From contig JAFGXR010000121.1 in the NCBI GenBank assembly GCA_016936555.1, positions 1 through 64,000 on the forward strand: 64,000 nt of DNA, written 5' to 3'. A program made the translations under genes and the position numbers. Positions 1,517 through 9,405 of the stretch are shown here, one piece after another (position 1 is the stretch's first letter; each line of letters begins with the position of its first letter). The notes under the pieces were generated by a model. That model saw only the letters and a list, made by a program, of their open reading frames with translations, was not told the origin of the DNA and did not search any database. Origin of the DNA: Spirochaetales bacterium (GTDB lineage: Bacteria > Spirochaetota > Spirochaetia > DSM-2461).

Positions 1517-1563
1517 AAAAGCGTTGAATATTGGCAGGGGAAGATACTAAAATTGTAATAGTC

Positions 1564-3009
1564 ATGGTCGAACTCAATATAATCATTCTGGAAGACGATA
1601 TTGTTCAGAATACCTGGTATAAGGCTTTTTTCAACAACCTCTCCTTTCCTCCCTGCCGAGTGACCACGACTGAAAATTTCACTCTTTTCAAAACGGAGTT
1701 CAGAGAGAATTTCTACAATTTCGCCATAATTGACTATTACCTTCCCGATACGAACGGCCGTGAAGTCCTCGCATATATAAAAGCGAACAATCCCGCCTGC
1801 GAAGTCATAATTGTTTCATCGACGCAAGAGATTTCCGCCGTTGTGGATCTTATGAAAACGGGGGCTTTTGATTTTCTGAAAAAGCCTCTGGATCCCAAGC
1901 GGCTTCAGGGGCTGACGATGCAGGTCTGGGAGAGCCAGACCATAGTCAAAGAGAGGGAAGTCAACCGTCCGGCGCGGGAGAGAAAAGGATTTTCCCAGGA
2001 AATCATCTACAAAAGCCACAAGATTGAAAAAATCCTCGATACGGCCTCCCGTTGCGCCAGCGTCGATTCCACAGTCCTTATCAGAGGGGAAAGCGGAACC
2101 GGCAAAGAACTCATTGCCAACTCCATTTATTCCATGAGCCGACGGACCAAAGCGCCTTTTGTCGTTCTCAATATAGCCTCCCTTCCGGAAACCCTTGTGG
2201 AAAGCGAACTTTTCGGACATAAGAAGGGCGCGTTTACAGGCGCCGCAACCGACCGGATCGGCCGTTTTGAAGAAGCCGACGGCGGGACGCTCTTCATAGA
2301 TGAAATCGGGGATATCTCCATGGCCGTTCAGGTAAAGCTTCTGCGCGCCATCCAATTCAAGACCTTTCAGAAACTAGGTGATAACGAAACATACAAATCG
2401 GACGTCCGGATAATCGCCGCCACGAGCCGGAACCTTGAGGAAATGATAAAAAACAGGGAATTCCGCGAGGACCTCTATTACCGGCTCAGCGTTATTACCA
2501 TCCGCATTCCCCCGTTGCGGGAGAGAAAAGAGGATATAAAGCCGCTTGTGGAATACTTTCTGGAAAATAAATGCCGTTTTTACGGAAAGAGCATTCCCCG
2601 TCTCACCGATAAGGTGACCCATGCACTCATACAGCACGATTATCCCGGGAACGTCAGGGAACTGGAAAATGTAGTGGAGCATGCCGTCGTTATGAACAGA
2701 GCCGAGATTCTCCTTTCGGAGGATCTGCCGGAGCAGATGAGAATCTACGTCTCCGATGATCCGGTGGCCGATGGCGATAGTGTTGAACCTGAGGAAGAGG
2801 GCGATGACGGATTTCTCTCATTCGGCGATGACGATCTCGATCTGGAGACGCTTCTTATGAGTCTGGAGAAGAAAATCATCAGCAGGGCTCTTGAAAAATG
2901 CGGAGGAAACCAGAGCGCCGCCGCGCGAGTGCTGAAAATTTCCGAGAGGAAGATGAGATTCCGCATGGAGAAACTCAATCTTGAAAATGTATACAGGACT
3001 GTACGATGA
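1564..3009 (+). CDS. NtrC-type sigma54-dependent response regulator
   Basis: Activator of sigma54 RNA polymerase. I chose ATG 1564 (481 residues) because the receiver begins directly after it ([11 protein letters not shown]); the open frame extends to 1531. Domains: receiver about 1-120 with phospho-acceptor Asp57 in AIIDYYLPD and Lys in FLKKP; AAA+ domain with Walker A GESGTGKE at about 175-182, an intact sigma54-contacting GAFTGA loop at about 222-227 and Walker B GGTLFIDE at about 240-247; C-terminal Fis-type helix-turn-helix ([13 protein letters not shown]). No histidine kinase is adjacent. The stop overlaps the start of the next gene (ATGA), which suggests one functional unit. A sigma54-type promoter lies 4 kb downstream at 7071-7086. 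Confidence 0.93.
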
Positions 3010-5057
3010 ACGATTTGACGAACACTGACATATTTCTTCCTCTCATATATGCCTGTTTTACCTTACCCAGTCTGTACATACTTTTCAGGTATTATCTGCT
3101 TGACCGCAGAAAGGAATTCCATTCGCTCCTGCTTATGGTTCTCGTTTTCAATTTTTTCCTGATCGCAGAAGGCAGCTCGCGGATTTTTATGAACTTTTAC
3201 GGGAATCTGCTGCTGGCCACCCAGTTCTCGCGGCTTCAGGAAGCATCACTTCTATTTCTCTATATTCTGGTACCCTATGTTATAGGTTCCAATTTTCCGC
3301 TTATGGACCGTTGGAAGAGAATAAACCGTTTCTTCCTCCTCATCGGGGTGGTCATTTCCGTCTATATGCTTTTTTTCGTCCTTTTCAAGCCGGAGACCTT
3401 TATAGATGTAAAGAAGTTCATGTCCGACAGCTTCATTCCCGGGAGCAAACCGGGGCGGGGAGCTACGGGTTATCTCTTTCAGCTCCGCGATGTTTTTCTC
3501 GTCGTTTATTTTATTTACGGACTGACCGCCGTGTTGGTCAACAAGAAGGATCACCACCTCGATCCCGTCCAATCCTCTATTCTTATCGGTGTCGCAATAG
3601 TATTCGCAATGAGTATAGGCGACCTGATAGCGGATATCAGCGGTAACAGGGTCGCTCATTTTTCAGAAATAATCCGCTTCGAACTGGGAGTGACGATTTT
3701 TTCTCTATTCGTTTTCTCCCGCTCCATTATTTATTTCCTGCGCAAAGGCCTGCTTCTCGAAGATACCAGGCGTCAACTGGAAGAAAATCAGAAACTCCTC
3801 GAATTTCAGGCAATCCACCGCAGGGAAAGCGGCCTTCTCAACCGGAAAGCTTTCCACGATGCCGTAAGGGACTACTTCAGCGGGGAAGATCACGGCACAG
3901 GCCGGGACGGTCTTCTCTATGTCCGAATAGAGAATTACCGTCAGCTTTATGAATCCTTCGGCAGCATCAGGACCAGGGATATCATGAGACAGGTCTCCTT
4001 CCGTCTGGAAAATGTCCAGACCGAATTATCCGTACTTTATCATACGGAACCGGGGGAGTTTGTCGTTTTTGTCAAAAAAGCCGATTCGGAGGATTATATC
4101 CGGCGGTATGCCGGCGTCCTCCGTTCGGTACTCCTCCAGCGGATTCTCATCGGCGAAGATTCCTATTACGTCAGATCTCTCATTGGAGTCATGTTCCTTC
4201 CCGAAGACGGCGCATCGCTCGATGAAGTCCAGCGGAACTCCTACAATACGCTGAACAATGCTTCCCTCTCCCCCGACAGAATTCTCTATTTTGATGAGAA
4301 TATCAGAAAGGAAAGCCTGAACCGGTATTCTCTTATAAATAATTTACAGACCGCCATGCGTCAGAACGGGTTTTCCTTCCGTTATCTTCCCCTGCTCACT
4401 CACAAGGGCGACAGAGCAGGGCTTATCCTAAGGCTTCACTGGGATCAGCCCTATGATTTCCTGGAACTGACCGCTTATGCGGAAAAATCCGGCCTGATTC
4501 ACGATATGCAGAGAATGTCCACTCAGATGTTCTATAACGATGTGAGAATTCTCAGAAACCACGGTGTGGAAGGCAGGATTTACGGTGTAATCAACACCTC
4601 CCTCCTGCAGTCGGAGGGCTTCGCCGATAAAGTCATTAACACCCTTGAGTCGGGGAATTTCACTGTAAACGATATCGGTTTCGTCATATATGACAATTAT
4701 CATTTTAATATGAAGAGTTTTATTGTTCAAAATATCGCGATTCTGAAGGATTACGGTTTCGATTTTATTCTCGACGAGTCGCGAAGCACCAATAACTCGC
4801 TCGATACGCTATTAACTGTTCCCATTGACAAGATTATCCTGAAAAGGGAGATCCTTAAGGGGCTGGAGCGCGATGAGAAAAAAAGAATCTATATTCACAA
4901 TATTCTCAAGATGATGAATGAACTGGATTATACGACCATTGCCGACGGGGTTGAATCAGCGGAGACTCTCAGCTATCTCAAAAAAGAAGGCATTTCCCTT
5001 TTTCTTGAAACCCCGTCCAACAAACCTGTTTCCCTGGAAGAATTGATTCAGGGATGA
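3006..5057 (+). CDS. Membrane protein with degenerate GGDEF and EAL domains
   Basis: A 683-residue protein. The N-terminal 240 residues contain about seven hydrophobic helices. A GGDEF-like domain follows (about 275-430), starting at ESGLLNRKAFHDAV, but its signature loop reads TEPGEF instead of GGDEF. The EAL-like domain (about 440-683) has GLILRL where EALLR is expected and lacks the metal-binding DDFGTG motif (FILDESRSTN instead). Both catalytic activities are therefore probably lost; such proteins often act as c-di-GMP or GTP receptors or as protein-interaction modules. The ATGA overlap with the sigma54 activator suggests that it senses a signal for that regulator in place of a kinase, which is inference. 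Its 3' end overlaps the convergent SCP2-like gene by 10 bases. Confidence 0.85.
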   Translation: MNDLTNTDIFLPLIYACFTLPSLYILFRYYLLDRRKEFHSLLLMVLVFNFFLIAEGSSRIFMNFYGNLLLATQFSRLQEASLLFLYILVPYVIGSNFPLMDRWKRINRFFLLIGVVISVYMLFFVLFKPETFIDVKKFMSDSFIPGSKPGRGATGYLFQLRDVFLVVYFIYGLTAVLVNKKDHHLDPVQSSILIGVAIVFAMSIGDLIADISGNRVAHFSEIIRFELGVTIFSLFVFSRSIIYFLRKGLLLEDTRRQLEENQKLLEFQAIHRRESGLLNRKAFHDAVRDYFSGEDHGTGRDGLLYVRIENYRQLYESFGSIRTRDIMRQVSFRLENVQTELSVLYHTEPGEFVVFVKKADSEDYIRRYAGVLRSVLLQRILIGEDSYYVRSLIGVMFLPEDGASLDEVQRNSYNTLNNASLSPDRILYFDENIRKESLNRYSLINNLQTAMRQNGFSFRYLPLLTHKGDRAGLILRLHWDQPYDFLELTAYAEKSGLIHDMQRMSTQMFYNDVRILRNHGVEGRIYGVINTSLLQSEGFADKVINTLESGNFTVNDIGFVIYDNYHFNMKSFIVQNIAILKDYGFDFILDESRSTNNSLDTLLTVPIDKIILKREILKGLERDEKKRIYIHNILKMMNELDYTTIADGVESAETLSYLKKEGISLFLETPSNKPVSLEELIQG

Positions 5058-6016
5058 TCACTCGAATTGTAGAATCCGTGAATGGCAAAAATATTCAAAA
5101 GAATGACACCGCAGAACAGCAGAGATATAAAGGTCAGAAAAGTATCTGAGATATATTTCCAGAGAGCTGTGTTCATACTCATATAGAGGAGGAAGATTAC
5201 GGCAAACCAGATTTCACTCCAGAGAACAAGAGCCCGCCGCTGTTTTCTCATGATTTCCGGTGTATAGATTTCCTGGCCGTTATTGTGTACCGAATTGTAC
5301 TCGGAAAGGACATTCCTTATGGGGCTGTAAAGCGAGCCGATGAAGAACAGGGGTATGGTCAGAAGAAAATAAATATGATAGTAAAATCTGTAATGGGGCG
5401 AATCGAGAAAAAAAAGAACTGTACTTATACCCAGATACACCAGAAGGAAAATCTCTATCCGCGTCAGCCTGTCGGTTTTATAGTAATAGATTGAAAATGC
5501 GGAGAACAGGATGAACAAGGATAAAAAGGACCCGGCCGTATTCACCGAGAAAACCCACCCCATCCATATCTGAAGAAAGGCCAGAGAAACCAATATGAAA
5601 CTGAACTCCCGGGGGAGGCCGAAGGGGCCTCTTCTTATTTTGCCCGGCAGGGAGTCCGGTTCCCGGAGGGTCGCTTTGTGAAAATGGAAAAACCTGCTCA
5701 TTTCAAAGAAAAACATACGGTCCCCGGAAATGTAATATTCTCCTTTGCCATAACCGTGATAGGGATCTGTCTCACTTCGAAGCAGGGCGAGAAAAGTTTC
5801 AATCGATCCCTGGTATTCCACATCCTGCATACGGCTCAGACCGTCGTTCAGGTAGGCTTCCTCTTTATTGATAACCATATGGTACTGGGAATAGGGAAAA
5901 ACCAGGTTGAGGATCCGCGGTTCCCCACGGTAGTCCTCCACGGCGAACTGACGGCATATATGGGACAGAATCATATGTTCGCTTTCGTATTTGTCTGCCG
6001 GACCGATATTCAGCAT
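5048..6016 (-). CDS. SCP2-like domain fused to multi-span membrane domain (copy 2)
   Basis: The longer open frame would start at 6154, but ATG 6016 is preferred: it gives MLNIGPADKYES and a 7-base overlap with the upstream paralogue. Residues 1 to about 115 match the sterol-carrier (SCP2) pattern in its C-terminal half: a YQGSIETFLALL stretch, then SETDPYHGYGKGEYYISGD, the typical 'TDP ... G ... I.GD' ending. About seven hydrophobic helices follow to residue 322. The SCP2 fold holds lipids or acyl chains in a hydrophobic tunnel, so a role in membrane-lipid sensing or handling is possible. The fusion to a polytopic membrane domain is one I do not recognise. Paralogous to the gene at 6010-6939. 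Confidence 0.75.
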   Translation of the reverse strand: MLNIGPADKYESEHMILSHICRQFAVEDYRGEPRILNLVFPYSQYHMVINKEEAYLNDGLSRMQDVEYQGSIETFLALLRSETDPYHGYGKGEYYISGDRMFFFEMSRFFHFHKATLREPDSLPGKIRRGPFGLPREFSFILVSLAFLQIWMGWVFSVNTAGSFLSLFILFSAFSIYYYKTDRLTRIEIFLLVYLGISTVLFFLDSPHYRFYYHIYFLLTIPLFFIGSLYSPIRNVLSEYNSVHNNGQEIYTPEIMRKQRRALVLWSEIWFAVIFLLYMSMNTALWKYISDTFLTFISLLFCGVILLNIFAIHGFYNSSDHP

Positions 6017-6939
6017 GAGCCCAGCTCCAGAAAGGAATAGACCCCGTTCAGAACAAAGAGGAGCAGGTACAGATTGCCGGCCAGTATCTGGTAAATGCCT
6101 CTGCCCCAGGGAATCATGGAAACGGCCACCCCGGCGCAGAAAAGAAGAATCCACAGGATGGTTATATTGGACTGGTGATTATTGATAATGCAGTCGGTGT
6201 ACTCTCTGTTGTTGATGCTAATAGAATTGTAAAGGCTCACTATTGTCCGATCGAAGAAAAAGCTGCCTGTAAAAATTATGATCATATAAATATTGTAGAG
6301 AAAGAAAATATTGCCGCTTACCGGAATGAAGTTCCAAATCAGGGCAATGGCAAAAGCCGGGTATATGAGGTAGAGAAACAGTTCCCTGAGATGCACTTTG
6401 TCGGTTAAAAACAGATATCCGATCAAACCCGTGAAGATTGAGGCAGGCAGAAAAATAAAATTATCGGTGAGATGCATCAATTGCGTAATCTGGAGCAGCA
6501 AGCCGGAAAACATCATCACAGCGAAGACCGAGCGGCCCGATAGCCTGAGCGGTCCCCGGTAGACAGAAGGCGTCTCATCGAATTTTTTCTCTTTCCGGTC
6601 CGTGTCGACCAGAGAGAAATTATTTCTGAGATGAAGGAAAAAGGCTATATCTCCTTCCACATCTATCTGACAGTCGAGAATACTTTTCAGCGGGTCGGTT
6701 TTTTTCCGGAGTATATCTATGAACGTTTCGATCGGACCCTTATATGTCACTGTGGCGCGGGGATGGCTCCCCCAGTTTACCGAACAGTGCCCCGCGGCAA
6801 AAGAGAGGTAATAGCTCTCTCCGCTGCTGCTTTGAATATTGAGAATGGGATCGTATTCAGGATCGACAGGAGTTTGGCGATAGGTTTCTGATATCACTTC
6901 CAGTAGATCCTGGTATTTGCCTGACTGATCGAATACCAT
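6010..6939 (-). CDS. SCP2-like domain fused to multi-span membrane domain (copy 1)
   Basis: A 309-residue protein. Residues 20-110 follow the SCP2 fold pattern closely: a beta-rich start (YYLSFAAGHCSVNWG), then ATVTYKGPIETFIDILR, KKTDPLKSI and IDVEGD. From about residue 130 there are about seven hydrophobic segments (for example SVFAVMMFSGLLLQI and LFLYLIYPAFAIALIW). It is the first gene of a leftward pair; its stop overlaps the start of its paralogue. ATG 6939 is the only possible start, because TGA is in frame just upstream. It has no good Shine-Dalgarno and sits at the predicted transcription start of a promoter-like sequence, suggesting a leaderless message. Function unknown; lipid binding at the membrane is inferred from the fold only. 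Confidence 0.78.
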   Translation of the reverse strand: MVFDQSGKYQDLLEVISETYRQTPVDPEYDPILNIQSSSGESYYLSFAAGHCSVNWGSHPRATVTYKGPIETFIDILRKKTDPLKSILDCQIDVEGDIAFFLHLRNNFSLVDTDRKEKKFDETPSVYRGPLRLSGRSVFAVMMFSGLLLQITQLMHLTDNFIFLPASIFTGLIGYLFLTDKVHLRELFLYLIYPAFAIALIWNFIPVSGNIFFLYNIYMIIIFTGSFFFDRTIVSLYNSISINNREYTDCIINNHQSNITILWILLFCAGVAVSMIPWGRGIYQILAGNLYLLLFVLNGVYSFLELGSC

Positions 6940-6945
6940 AATTCA

Positions 6946-6973
6946 ATATTAATCCAAACTCACCTCTTTTCAA
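6946..6973 (-). promoter_or_regulatory. Sigma70-type promoter for the leftward SCP2-like pair
   Basis: On the minus strand there is TTGAAA at 6973-6968, a 16-base spacer and TAATAT at 6951-6946. The expected transcription start falls on or beside the ATG at 6939, so the message would have almost no leader. AGAGGTGAG lies inside the spacer, too far from the ATG to serve it. Confidence 0.5.
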
Positions 6974-7070
6974 GCCGCTTTCTTCCCTTTTCGTCGAATT
7001 GCCTGTGATCCGTAGCATTCTTCGACGGAAAAGGCCTTAAAATGGACAGTATTTCCGATTTTCACTCACT

Positions 7071-7086
7071 TGGCATGGTTTTGGCA
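7071..7086 (+). promoter_or_regulatory. Sigma54 (-24/-12) promoter
   Basis: The sequence TGGCATG-GTTT-TGGCA has the invariant GG (7072-7073) and GC (7084-7085) separated by exactly ten bases and matches the consensus TGGCACG-N4-TTGCA at most positions. The expected start lies near 7096, just ahead of the ribosome site AGGGGAGG (7098-7105) and ATG 7116. A sigma54 activator is encoded at 1564-3009, so a local regulatory circuit is plausible. Confidence 0.65.
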
Positions 7087-7115
7087 TGATTGTAGGCAGG
7101 GGAGGATATAGCAGT

Positions 7116-7484
7116 ATGTCAGGTAATTATTTTTCAGCAGAATATTTTCATTTCAATTATTCCACTCATCTGGACAGATTTCTCGACAGGCTTGAATATC
7201 CCACGTCTTACGAGTTTCATATGGTGCTCAATGTCCGGACTGAAAGGGGCGAGCGCATTCAGAAGTTTCACCTGAACAGCCGGTTCCGAAATGAGGAGAA
7301 CCGGTTTGTCCCTCTTGTTCTTCTCAAGGCCGGCGACGCCACATTCCGGAAGCTTTTCTCCGGGATCGCGGAAATCTCCGACCTTTACAAAGATGGCGAC
7401 CTGGCGGCGTCGGGAGAAGTTTATTTAATCGGAGCTCTTTCGCAAGCGCTGAAACAGTATTACAGAAACGGCGGTGTTTCATGA
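7116..7484 (+). CDS. Small SCP2-like protein (first of pair)
   Basis: ATG 7116 is chosen over the in-frame ATG at 7086 because AGGGGAGG lies ten bases before it and the earlier ATG overlaps the -12 box of the sigma54 promoter. The 122-residue product has no signal peptide or membrane helix. Its second half (PLVLLKAGDATFRKLFSG ... LYKDGDLAASGEVYLIGAL) resembles the end of an SCP2 domain: a beta strand, a helix, then an acidic-glycine loop before 'SGE'. The likeness is weaker than in the leftward fusion genes. The stop overlaps the next start (ATGA). A soluble lipid- or acyl-binding protein is a reasonable guess. Confidence 0.6.
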   Translation: MSGNYFSAEYFHFNYSTHLDRFLDRLEYPTSYEFHMVLNVRTERGERIQKFHLNSRFRNEENRFVPLVLLKAGDATFRKLFSGIAEISDLYKDGDLAASGEVYLIGALSQALKQYYRNGGVS

Positions 7485-7831
7485 CTCTGTTCAAGGAACT
7501 GGCCGCCTTTATGGAAGAACTGAATTTTAAAATCAATGACGGGATTGAACGATCGATCAATATCATCACGGAAAATGAAAGCTTTACCGTTACGATCAGA
7601 ACCGGGAATGGGTTTCTGAGCAACAACTTTTGCGATGAGCCTCATCTGGCTATCCGGATCAATGAATATCATCTGCGCGGCCTGATGGATTGCCGTTGTG
7701 AGATACTCGAACTCTACTTAAAAGGCAGAATGAAGGCCGGAGGCAATCTGCCCCTGCTACTCTCTTTTGTCATGGCTGTGGGGCATTATCAGGAAAAACA
7801 TAAAAGCGAAAGGCTCCGATTCTGTGTTTAG
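7481..7831 (+). CDS. Small SCP2-like protein (second of pair)
   Basis: A 116-residue soluble protein whose ATG overlaps the stop of the preceding gene, so the two are translationally coupled and probably form a pair. Residues 25-95 repeat the same architecture: strands (SFTVTIRTGNGFLSNN), PHLAIRINEYHLRGLMDC, then LYLKGRMKAGGNLPLLLSF in the position of the SCP2 'G.l...G' ending. The sequence match to SCP2 is marginal and rests partly on its neighbours. It is presumably driven by the sigma54-type promoter at 7071-7086. No catalytic motif is visible. Confidence 0.55.
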   Translation: MTLFKELAAFMEELNFKINDGIERSINIITENESFTVTIRTGNGFLSNNFCDEPHLAIRINEYHLRGLMDCRCEILELYLKGRMKAGGNLPLLLSFVMAVGHYQEKHKSERLRFCV

Positions 7832-7923
7832 TCCGATGAAACCGGCCAGTTTTCGACTTTTCAGGCAACTTATTTCTTAATGAATTTAAAAACTTTTTTT
7901 GTGTAGAAAGTAGAGGAGAATCT

Positions 7924-9405
7924 GTGAAAAGGAATCAATTGTATTACTATTACATGATAATTATTTTTTTCGGACTGATCGGGGATTTTCTCCTCGGCGG
8001 ACCTTATTTCAGCCCATTCCTGACTCTGCTACTCTGCGTTTTTCTCATCAGGGAGAGGGGAAGAGGCTGCACGATGAGAACCTGGGATCTCTCTTCCCCT
8101 TTCGAAAACTGGTATAATCTCTCCGAGAGGGACATCGTTCAGTCCTATCTCTCTTCTCTGGAACTGAATGGGGAGCGGAAAGCGCTGGCTGTGCTGATCC
8201 GGACGGAAATCCCCGAATCCTATTATTCCCCTGCGGGGAACCGGTATCCCCTTATCGCCGTCCGGGAAGAGATCGCCTCCCGTCTGAATAAACTGATCAG
8301 AAAAGTGGATTTCATCGGGAAAAAAGGAGGGGCTGAATTCCTGGTCATTCTGGAAGCCATCGATGGACAGAATACGGCCGGCATACTTGCCAGAAGGTTA
8401 ATAAAAACCCTGGCCGGAGATTTTCACTACAAGGGCAATACCTATCCCGTCAATGTTAACCTGGGTATCACTTCTGTGGAAAAAGGGAACCAGTCATCTG
8501 AAGTCATGAGCAGATGCCGTACCGCCCTTACCGATGCGGCCGGTCTGGGAGTCAACACCTTTGTCATCTCCGGAATGCACGACAGCGATGATCAGAACAG
8601 GGGGTCGAAGCTGGAAATGGCGCTGAAAGAAGCTTTGAACAACGATGAGATGGAGGTTTTTCTCCAGCCTAAATGTTCGGCGGGGACCGGGGAGCTTGTC
8701 AGCATGGAAGCCCTTTTGAGATGGAATCACCCTGTTCTGGGCCATATATCTCCCCAGGAGTTCATACCTGTAGCGGAGAACAGCGGGATGATAGGGTCAA
8801 TCAGCCGTTTTGTTTATTACCGTGCTTTTCAAATGCTCGAGGAGTTATCCCGGCTGGGATATTCCCGCTTGCGGCTGTCCCTCAACGTCTCTCCTCTTGA
8901 AATACATGACGGCTCGCTGGTAGGCAATCTGACGAACGGATTGCTTTTCACGGGAGTTGATCCCCGCAAAGTAGAACTGGAAATAACGGAAGGCTCTCTG
9001 CTTATTAACAGCGAGACAGCGCGGAACATTCTCGATGAGGTGAGAAGTCTGGGGTTCCAGATTTCCATAGATGATTTCGGAACGGGGTATTCCACTTTCC
9101 TGTATCTGAAGAACTTCCGGTTCGACACTCTGAAAATCGATAAAAGCTTCATTGATCATATCGAGAGGGATAACAGCTCCAGGGCCATCGTACAGGCCAT
9201 CATCGCTTTATCGAGATCTCTGAAACTGCAGACTGTTGCGGAAGGCGTGGAAAATTTCGAGCAATATGAAATCCTCAAAGAACTGGGTTGCGATGAACTG
9301 CAGGGGTATTATTTCGGGAGACCTATGGATTTTGATGATTTTCTCCTCTATCTGGAAGACCGAGCCGGGGATTCAATAAGCATATTGCCACTTTCAGCCA
9401 GGTAA
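7924..9405 (+). CDS. GGDEF-EAL protein, probable c-di-GMP phosphodiesterase
   Basis: A 493-residue protein starting at GTG 7924, with GAGGAG nine bases upstream. One or two N-terminal helices (about 8-45) anchor it. The GGDEF domain (about 75-215) has a modified loop, GKKGGAEF, and lacks the acidic signature, so it is probably regulatory. The EAL domain (about 225-480) looks fully active: EALLRWNHP, ELEITEGSLL, the metal-binding DDFGTGYS, KIDKSFI, AEGVEN and the QGYYFGRPM ending. Predicted to hydrolyse c-di-GMP to pGpG. It lies about 90 bases after the SCP2-like pair in the same direction and could be expressed with it. Confidence 0.9.
   Translation: MKRNQLYYYYMIIIFFGLIGDFLLGGPYFSPFLTLLLCVFLIRERGRGCTMRTWDLSSPFENWYNLSERDIVQSYLSSLELNGERKALAVLIRTEIPESYYSPAGNRYPLIAVREEIASRLNKLIRKVDFIGKKGGAEFLVILEAIDGQNTAGILARRLIKTLAGDFHYKGNTYPVNVNLGITSVEKGNQSSEVMSRCRTALTDAAGLGVNTFVISGMHDSDDQNRGSKLEMALKEALNNDEMEVFLQPKCSAGTGELVSMEALLRWNHPVLGHISPQEFIPVAENSGMIGSISRFVYYRAFQMLEELSRLGYSRLRLSLNVSPLEIHDGSLVGNLTNGLLFTGVDPRKVELEITEGSLLINSETARNILDEVRSLGFQISIDDFGTGYSTFLYLKNFRFDTLKIDKSFIDHIERDNSSRAIVQAIIALSRSLKLQTVAEGVENFEQYEILKELGCDELQGYYFGRPMDFDDFLLYLEDRAGDSISILPLSAR

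Follow-up and report, generated by a model that had tools for sequence, protein, structure and literature searches.

A probable sigma54 promoter with a conserved upstream inverted repeat in a c-di-GMP/adhesin gene cluster of a Spirochaetales bacterium

Introduction

Control of the cell exterior by sigma54 is a known general theme (PMC3162934). In the Desulfovibrio sigma54 regulome, activators were assigned to their targets by co-localisation (PMC4641369). BerB and RpoN control berA in Burkholderia cenocepacia, in a manner linked to c-di-GMP (PMC5552954), and in Borrelia the protein PlzA (PilZN3-PilZ) is an example of a PilZN3 protein acting as a c-di-GMP reader (PMC8323883).

Here we describe a locus in a 64,000-nucleotide stretch of DNA from a Spirochaetales bacterium (assembly GCA_016936555.1, contig JAFGXR010000121.1, positions 1 to 64,000), referred to below as the window. 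The predicted promoter is of the ordinary, known sigma54 type and lies within a new c-di-GMP/adhesin cluster. In a limited comparison with the literature, the particular circuit appears to be undescribed.

Sigma54 site upstream of a gene pair

We identified a predicted sigma54 promoter, followed by a ribosome binding site and two small genes:

7070..7086, + strand: predicted sigma54 (-24/-12) promoter, TTGGCATGGTTTTGGCA; predicted +1 at about 7097
7098..7105, + strand: ribosome binding site AGGGGAGG, serving the ATG at 7116; the block 7100-7109 is 10/10 identical in the sister genome G002
7116..7484, + strand: putative target gene 1, 122 aa; no match in Pfam
7481..7831, + strand: putative target gene 2, 116 aa, with an ATGA overlap with gene 1; possible SCP2-like fold, sub-threshold

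The window sequence at 7071-7086 is TGGCATGGTTTTGGCA, with one mismatch to TGGCAYRN4TTGCW. As given in the preliminary description, GG (7072-73) and GC (7084-85) have exactly 10 bases between them. The same description considered this the sole convincing sigma54 promoter, and we found no other site with 0-1 mismatch on either strand of the 64 kb. Sites were scored with a matrix built from the same genome's own well-placed sigma54 sites (37 calibration sites). TGGCATGGTTTTGGCA scores 15.4 bits, about 5 bits above the window runner-up (10.5 bits) and slightly under the weakest calibration site (16.1 bits). The base at -14 is G (TGGC, not TTGC). All 37 calibration sites carry T at this position and none carries G; the G is likewise kept in G002.

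Transcription from sigma54 promoters is expected to start 11-12 nt after the GC. The predicted +1, at about 7097, falls just before the ribosome site at 7098-7105, which agrees with the earlier placement. This ribosome site is strong, and the sigma54 site lies 45 nt upstream of the ATG at 7116. The ATG at 7086, taken as the start in a mechanical list of open reading frames, falls within the -12 element, and the sister genome does not keep it.

Among the proteins encoded in the genome are RpoN, whose RpoN box (ARRTVAKYRKE) is intact, and about 16 sigma54 activators with a sigma54-interaction domain. Of 25 perfect sigma54 sites, 24 are followed at 36-73 nt by an ATG that has a ribosome site. Thus, the motif is used as a promoter in this genome, and the 45 nt spacing at 7071-7086 falls inside the same range. 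Sites with at most one mismatch occur 70 times genome-wide, compared to 80 times for a reversed control pattern. A single-mismatch match is therefore insignificant on sequence alone, and the significance of 7071-7086 derives from its placement, its conservation and the repeat upstream. A sigma54 site occurs within 2 kb of 10 of the 16 activator genes (about 1 expected by chance, P ~7e-9) and within 5 kb of 12 of the 16; the activator encoded in the window belongs to the 5-kb set.

Conservation of the site and of the repeat was judged from one sister genome, the congener G002. Gene order in G002 is the same from the window start to past the pair (7.8 kb, 83% identity). The block 7069-7086 is 16/18 identical to G002 L054:10099-10116 (nominal P 2e-4), compared to 46% for the neighbouring spacer. 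The G002 version of the site is TGGCACGATTTTGGCA. One of the two changes is at an N position of the consensus, and the other, at the Y position (T to C), gives G002 the full -24 consensus TTGGCACG. We conclude that 7071-7086 is very likely a real sigma54 promoter. The locus also shows that conservation between species is possible for a sigma54-like site whose -12 box reads TGGC.

Upstream inverted repeat

Two arms of an inverted repeat, a candidate upstream activator site (UAS), precede the promoter:

6988..6998, + strand: candidate UAS, distal arm TTTTCGTCGAA; begins 83 bp upstream of the -24 element
7021..7032, - strand: candidate UAS, proximal arm TTCGACGGAAAA, inverted; begins 50 bp upstream of the -24 element

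The block 6988-6999 is 12/12 identical in G002, again compared to 46% for the neighbouring spacer, and the block 7020-7031 is 11/12 identical; TTCGACGGAAAA has one extra G relative to the G002 arm TTCGACGAAAA. Together the arms are 23/24 identical (nominal P 2e-7). The distance from arm start to arm start is 33 bp in both genomes, and in G002 the arms lie 82 and 49 bp before the pair promoter, compared to 83 and 50 bp in the window. Counted from the predicted +1, the arms start about 109 and 76 bp upstream, inside the range of about 70-150 bp sought for a dyad. Sites for bEBPs usually lie at such distances upstream of sigma54 promoters.

G002 has only two matches to the looser pattern TTTTCGTC-N(22-26)-TTCGAC, one at the pair promoter and one at the promoter of a PilZN3 operon (see below). 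The window genome has one at the pair promoter and a single further one in coding sequence, on contig C33, with no sigma54 site near. The congeners G001 and G003, which have neither an ortholog of the activator nor the pair, contain zero matches. Raw counts of the pattern equal the level of the reversed control, and it is the location of the matches that is telling. The hexamer GTCGAA alone was considered as the activator site and rejected as unspecific, given that it is found at 6 of the 25 other perfect promoters (shuffle mean 2.6). Specificity lies in the two-arm repeat. We also rejected a function as terminator or hairpin, as the repeat lies between divergent genes and no terminator-like site was found.

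Activator gene and its paralog

An activator and a GGDEF-EAL protein are encoded upstream:

1531..3009, + strand: response-regulator sigma54 activator, with REC, AAA+ (GAFTGA and Walker A) and HTH_8
3006..5057, + strand: membrane GGDEF-EAL protein, with an ATGA overlap with the activator gene

A sigma54 activator had been placed about 4 kb from the promoter. The gene at 1531-3009 indeed sits 4.1 kb upstream, and its product has the REC-AAA+-HTH_8 architecture with GAFTGA present. Its ortholog, 91% identical, occurs in G002 only, the genome that shares the pair and the repeat. When named genomes were scanned with the activator, the relatives that appeared were all from other phyla and reached about 45% identity at best (54% over one short segment). 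The GGDEF-EAL gene is probably co-transcribed with the activator gene, as judged from the overlap.

A paralogous activator, 41% identical, is encoded on contig C131. It has a sigma54 promoter directly downstream in 4/4 congeners, and palindromes near TCGACA-N4-TGTCGA were identified upstream of these paralog-linked promoters (L010:2440-2660 on C131; L065, L066, L068). In the window genome, the gene downstream of the paralog encodes a small exported protein. The same 16-bp palindrome, with 0-1 mismatch, is found upstream of other perfect sigma54 sites (L028, L029 (C43:91112), L030, L035), which suggests a multi-target regulon of the paralog.

Second sigma54 promoter

On the opposite side of the activator gene, at a distance of 15.6 kb, G002 has the perfect sigma54 promoter TGGCACGGATATTGCA. 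This promoter carries TTTTCGTCGGAT...CTTCGACAAAAC at 80 and 48 bp. When the promoter region was shuffled, 1 of 5000 shuffles yielded such an arm pair at any position. The operon encodes a PilZN3 protein (E=4e-16; the window-genome copy has E=6e-17) and a lipoprotein-like adhesin of 1237 aa that has Ig-like and cadherin-like domains. The middle genes, read from their sequences without a family match, may encode a coiled-coil exported protein and an outer-membrane-like protein.

The PilZN3 promoter of the window genome (contig C46) has a diverged repeat, in which TTTTCGTC and ATCGATGAAAA lie at 61 and 39 bp, respectively. It also carries TCGTCATAAATGTCGA, which has one mismatch to the paralog's site. 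Contigs C46 and C49 (L132, L133) are collinear with the G002 stretch that lies just upstream of the window start. Thus, the PilZN3 operon very probably lies just upstream of the window in its own genome too, and the MCP/PilZN3/adhesin genes are probably located there. The window-genome assembly breaks around the adhesin genes.

G002 encodes a second Ig/cadherin-like adhesin of about 1.2 kaa (L054:10982-14629), located between the pair and the EAL-GGDEF gene and preceded by its own perfect sigma54 promoter (L054:10932-10947). The window genome lacks this adhesin at the corresponding place (7832-7923), and the EAL gene (7924-9405) is directly behind the pair.

The gene pair and the SCP2 domain

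The region upstream of the pair includes a divergent gene and its promoter:

6010..6939, - strand: divergent gene with an SCP2 domain and membrane segments; Pfam SCP2 E=3.5e-7, above cut-off
6945..6973, - strand: sigma70-like promoter TTGAAA-17-AATATT, which serves the divergent gene and ends 5 nt before its ATG; conserved

The ortholog of gene 1 (80% identical) is found only in G002 among 61 genomes, and a scan of the gene 1 alignment against named genomes found no relative. Gene 2 matches Pfam SCP2 (PF02036) below threshold, with E=0.049 and 14.4 bits against a cut-off of 21.3 over about 70 residues. Its best PDB match is sterol carrier protein 2, with a non-significant E=0.35. A gene 2 profile run against 395 genomes of the class found a convincing relative in G002 only. 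A match in G172 was discarded as a chance match inside the frame of a GntR-type regulator. Structure predictions for the two small proteins have pLDDT 45 and 40, and the models are unusable. When profiles were compared, the pair gave no match to the SCP2-membrane protein, and the two small proteins matched each other with a probability of 50 only.

The preliminary description proposed a circuit from the activator to lipid-domain genes. The link to the activator is supported, given the conserved repeat shared with the second promoter and the tendency of activators to adjoin sigma54 sites. The SCP2/lipid label is weak, because gene 1 has no Pfam match and gene 2 is below cut-off. For the pair itself, "lipid-domain genes" is a guess by neighbourhood.

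On the minus strand, the interval 5048-6939 encodes two tandem membrane proteins with SCP2-like N-terminal domains (E=0.31 for the one other than 6010-6939), an unusual combination. The divergent SCP2-membrane gene has no obvious ribosome site and is a candidate for a leaderless mRNA.

Proposed circuit and alternatives

RpoN polymerase alone cannot open a sigma54 promoter. We propose that it would read the two-gene operon 7116-7831 from 7070-7086, starting at about 7097, and that the activator 1531-3009 would bind the candidate inverted repeat TTTTCGTCGAA...TTCGACGGAAAA (6988-7032). Once its receiver domain is phosphorylated, the activator would reach the polymerase by looping and use ATP hydrolysis to open the promoter. 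It probably also drives the second sigma54 operon (PilZN3, outer-membrane protein and Ig/cadherin-like adhesin). Expression of the pair would then coincide with that of a surface adhesin, in a gene neighbourhood rich in c-di-GMP functions. The sequence itself shows the promoter match, its conservation, the shared repeat and the co-occurrence, whereas binding by this activator, phosphorylation, activity and the function of the pair are inferred. The repeat, taken with its co-occurrence with the activator, gives strong support to the promoter and moderate support to the circuit from activator to pair. The repeat could also be bound by another of the genome's activators. Because activators co-localise with sigma54 sites, we infer that the local one is its best assignment. 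As a whole, the explanation of 7070-7086 as a promoter driven by the local activator is likely.

The pair may instead be activated at the same sigma54 promoter by another protein, either the C131 paralog or an unlinked regulator. The choice is wide, with about 16 activators encoded, and the paralog's presumed site, TCGACA-N4-TGTCGA, shares a GTCGA core with the repeat and is fitted by the window genome's own PilZN3 promoter. We consider this unlikely, as the paralog is also present in G001 and G003, which have neither pair nor repeat, whereas the local activator co-occurs with both. The paralog's palindrome does not fit the window promoter either, where every match has at least 3 mismatches, and co-localisation, the rule used in PMC4641369, favours the local activator.

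Two further explanations dispense with sigma54 at this site. The sequence TTGGCATG-GTT-TTGGCATG, an exact 8-bp direct repeat with copies 11 bp apart (one helical turn), overlaps the site and may be the operator of some other regulator, acting on an unrecognised promoter. This would account for the atypical G at -14, and TTGGCA is kept twice, 11 bp apart, in G002. Nevertheless, no sigma70-like promoter was found on the + strand before the pair, the G002 -24 element is the full consensus, and the spacing to the upstream repeat is within 1-3 bp of that at the perfect sigma54 promoter in the same cluster, so that an operator is improbable. A chance match, with the pair transcribed from another promoter or by read-through, accords with sites of at most one mismatch being no commoner than the reversed control pattern. 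It is hard to reconcile with the placement, with conservation amid a diverged spacer and with the shared upstream repeat; read-through has no obvious source, since the gene upstream is divergent. We regard chance as the least credible of these explanations, and very improbable.

Returning to the circuit with the local activator, we tentatively suggest a small genus-specific regulon, a possibility that we rate somewhat below even. In it, one activator would act through the two-arm repeat TTTTCGTCG-N(22-24)-CTTCGACRAAA, and the adhesin operon and the pair would be co-expressed. The pair would possibly be lipid-binding and related to the SCP2-membrane neighbours, and the regulon might thereby couple adhesin display with c-di-GMP signalling and the handling of envelope lipids. 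The analysis turns a motif guess into a testable circuit, in which the promoter, activator site, activator and second target are named by coordinates. It also links proteins of unassigned family to a c-di-GMP/adhesin gene cluster.

Comparison with known systems

The pair is only partly comparable to SCP2 proteins (PF02036). Gene 2 resembles them weakly and 6010-6939 does so above cut-off, whereas gene 1 is unmatched and there is no structural support.

The predicted promoter resembles those of the Desulfovibrio regulome (PMC4641369) in its -24/-12 core, in which 10 bp separate GG from GC. There, as here, activator sites are mostly upstream near the promoter and activator genes are near their targets. 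Unlike the Desulfovibrio promoters, the window site has G, not T, at -14. The window repeat also differs from the site of the paralog in its own genome, in that its two arms are 33 bp apart, whereas the paralog apparently uses a compact 16-bp palindrome.

As for BerB (PMC5552954), the gene for an RpoN activator is near its target, in a surface/biofilm locus linked to c-di-GMP. BerB has no N-terminal input domain and is itself a c-di-GMP-binding protein, whereas the window activator has a REC domain. In contrast to BerB, c-di-GMP would enter the circuit via the neighbouring GGDEF/EAL and PilZN3 proteins.

The locus shares with the Borrelia Rrp2-RpoN/PlzA system (PMC8323883) a two-component RpoN activator and PilZN3 c-di-GMP readers. 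Unlike Rrp2-RpoN, no rpoS or BosR step is indicated in the window genome. Also in contrast to that system, the window has a predicted conserved upstream activator site, and the predicted targets are the gene pair and the adhesin operon.
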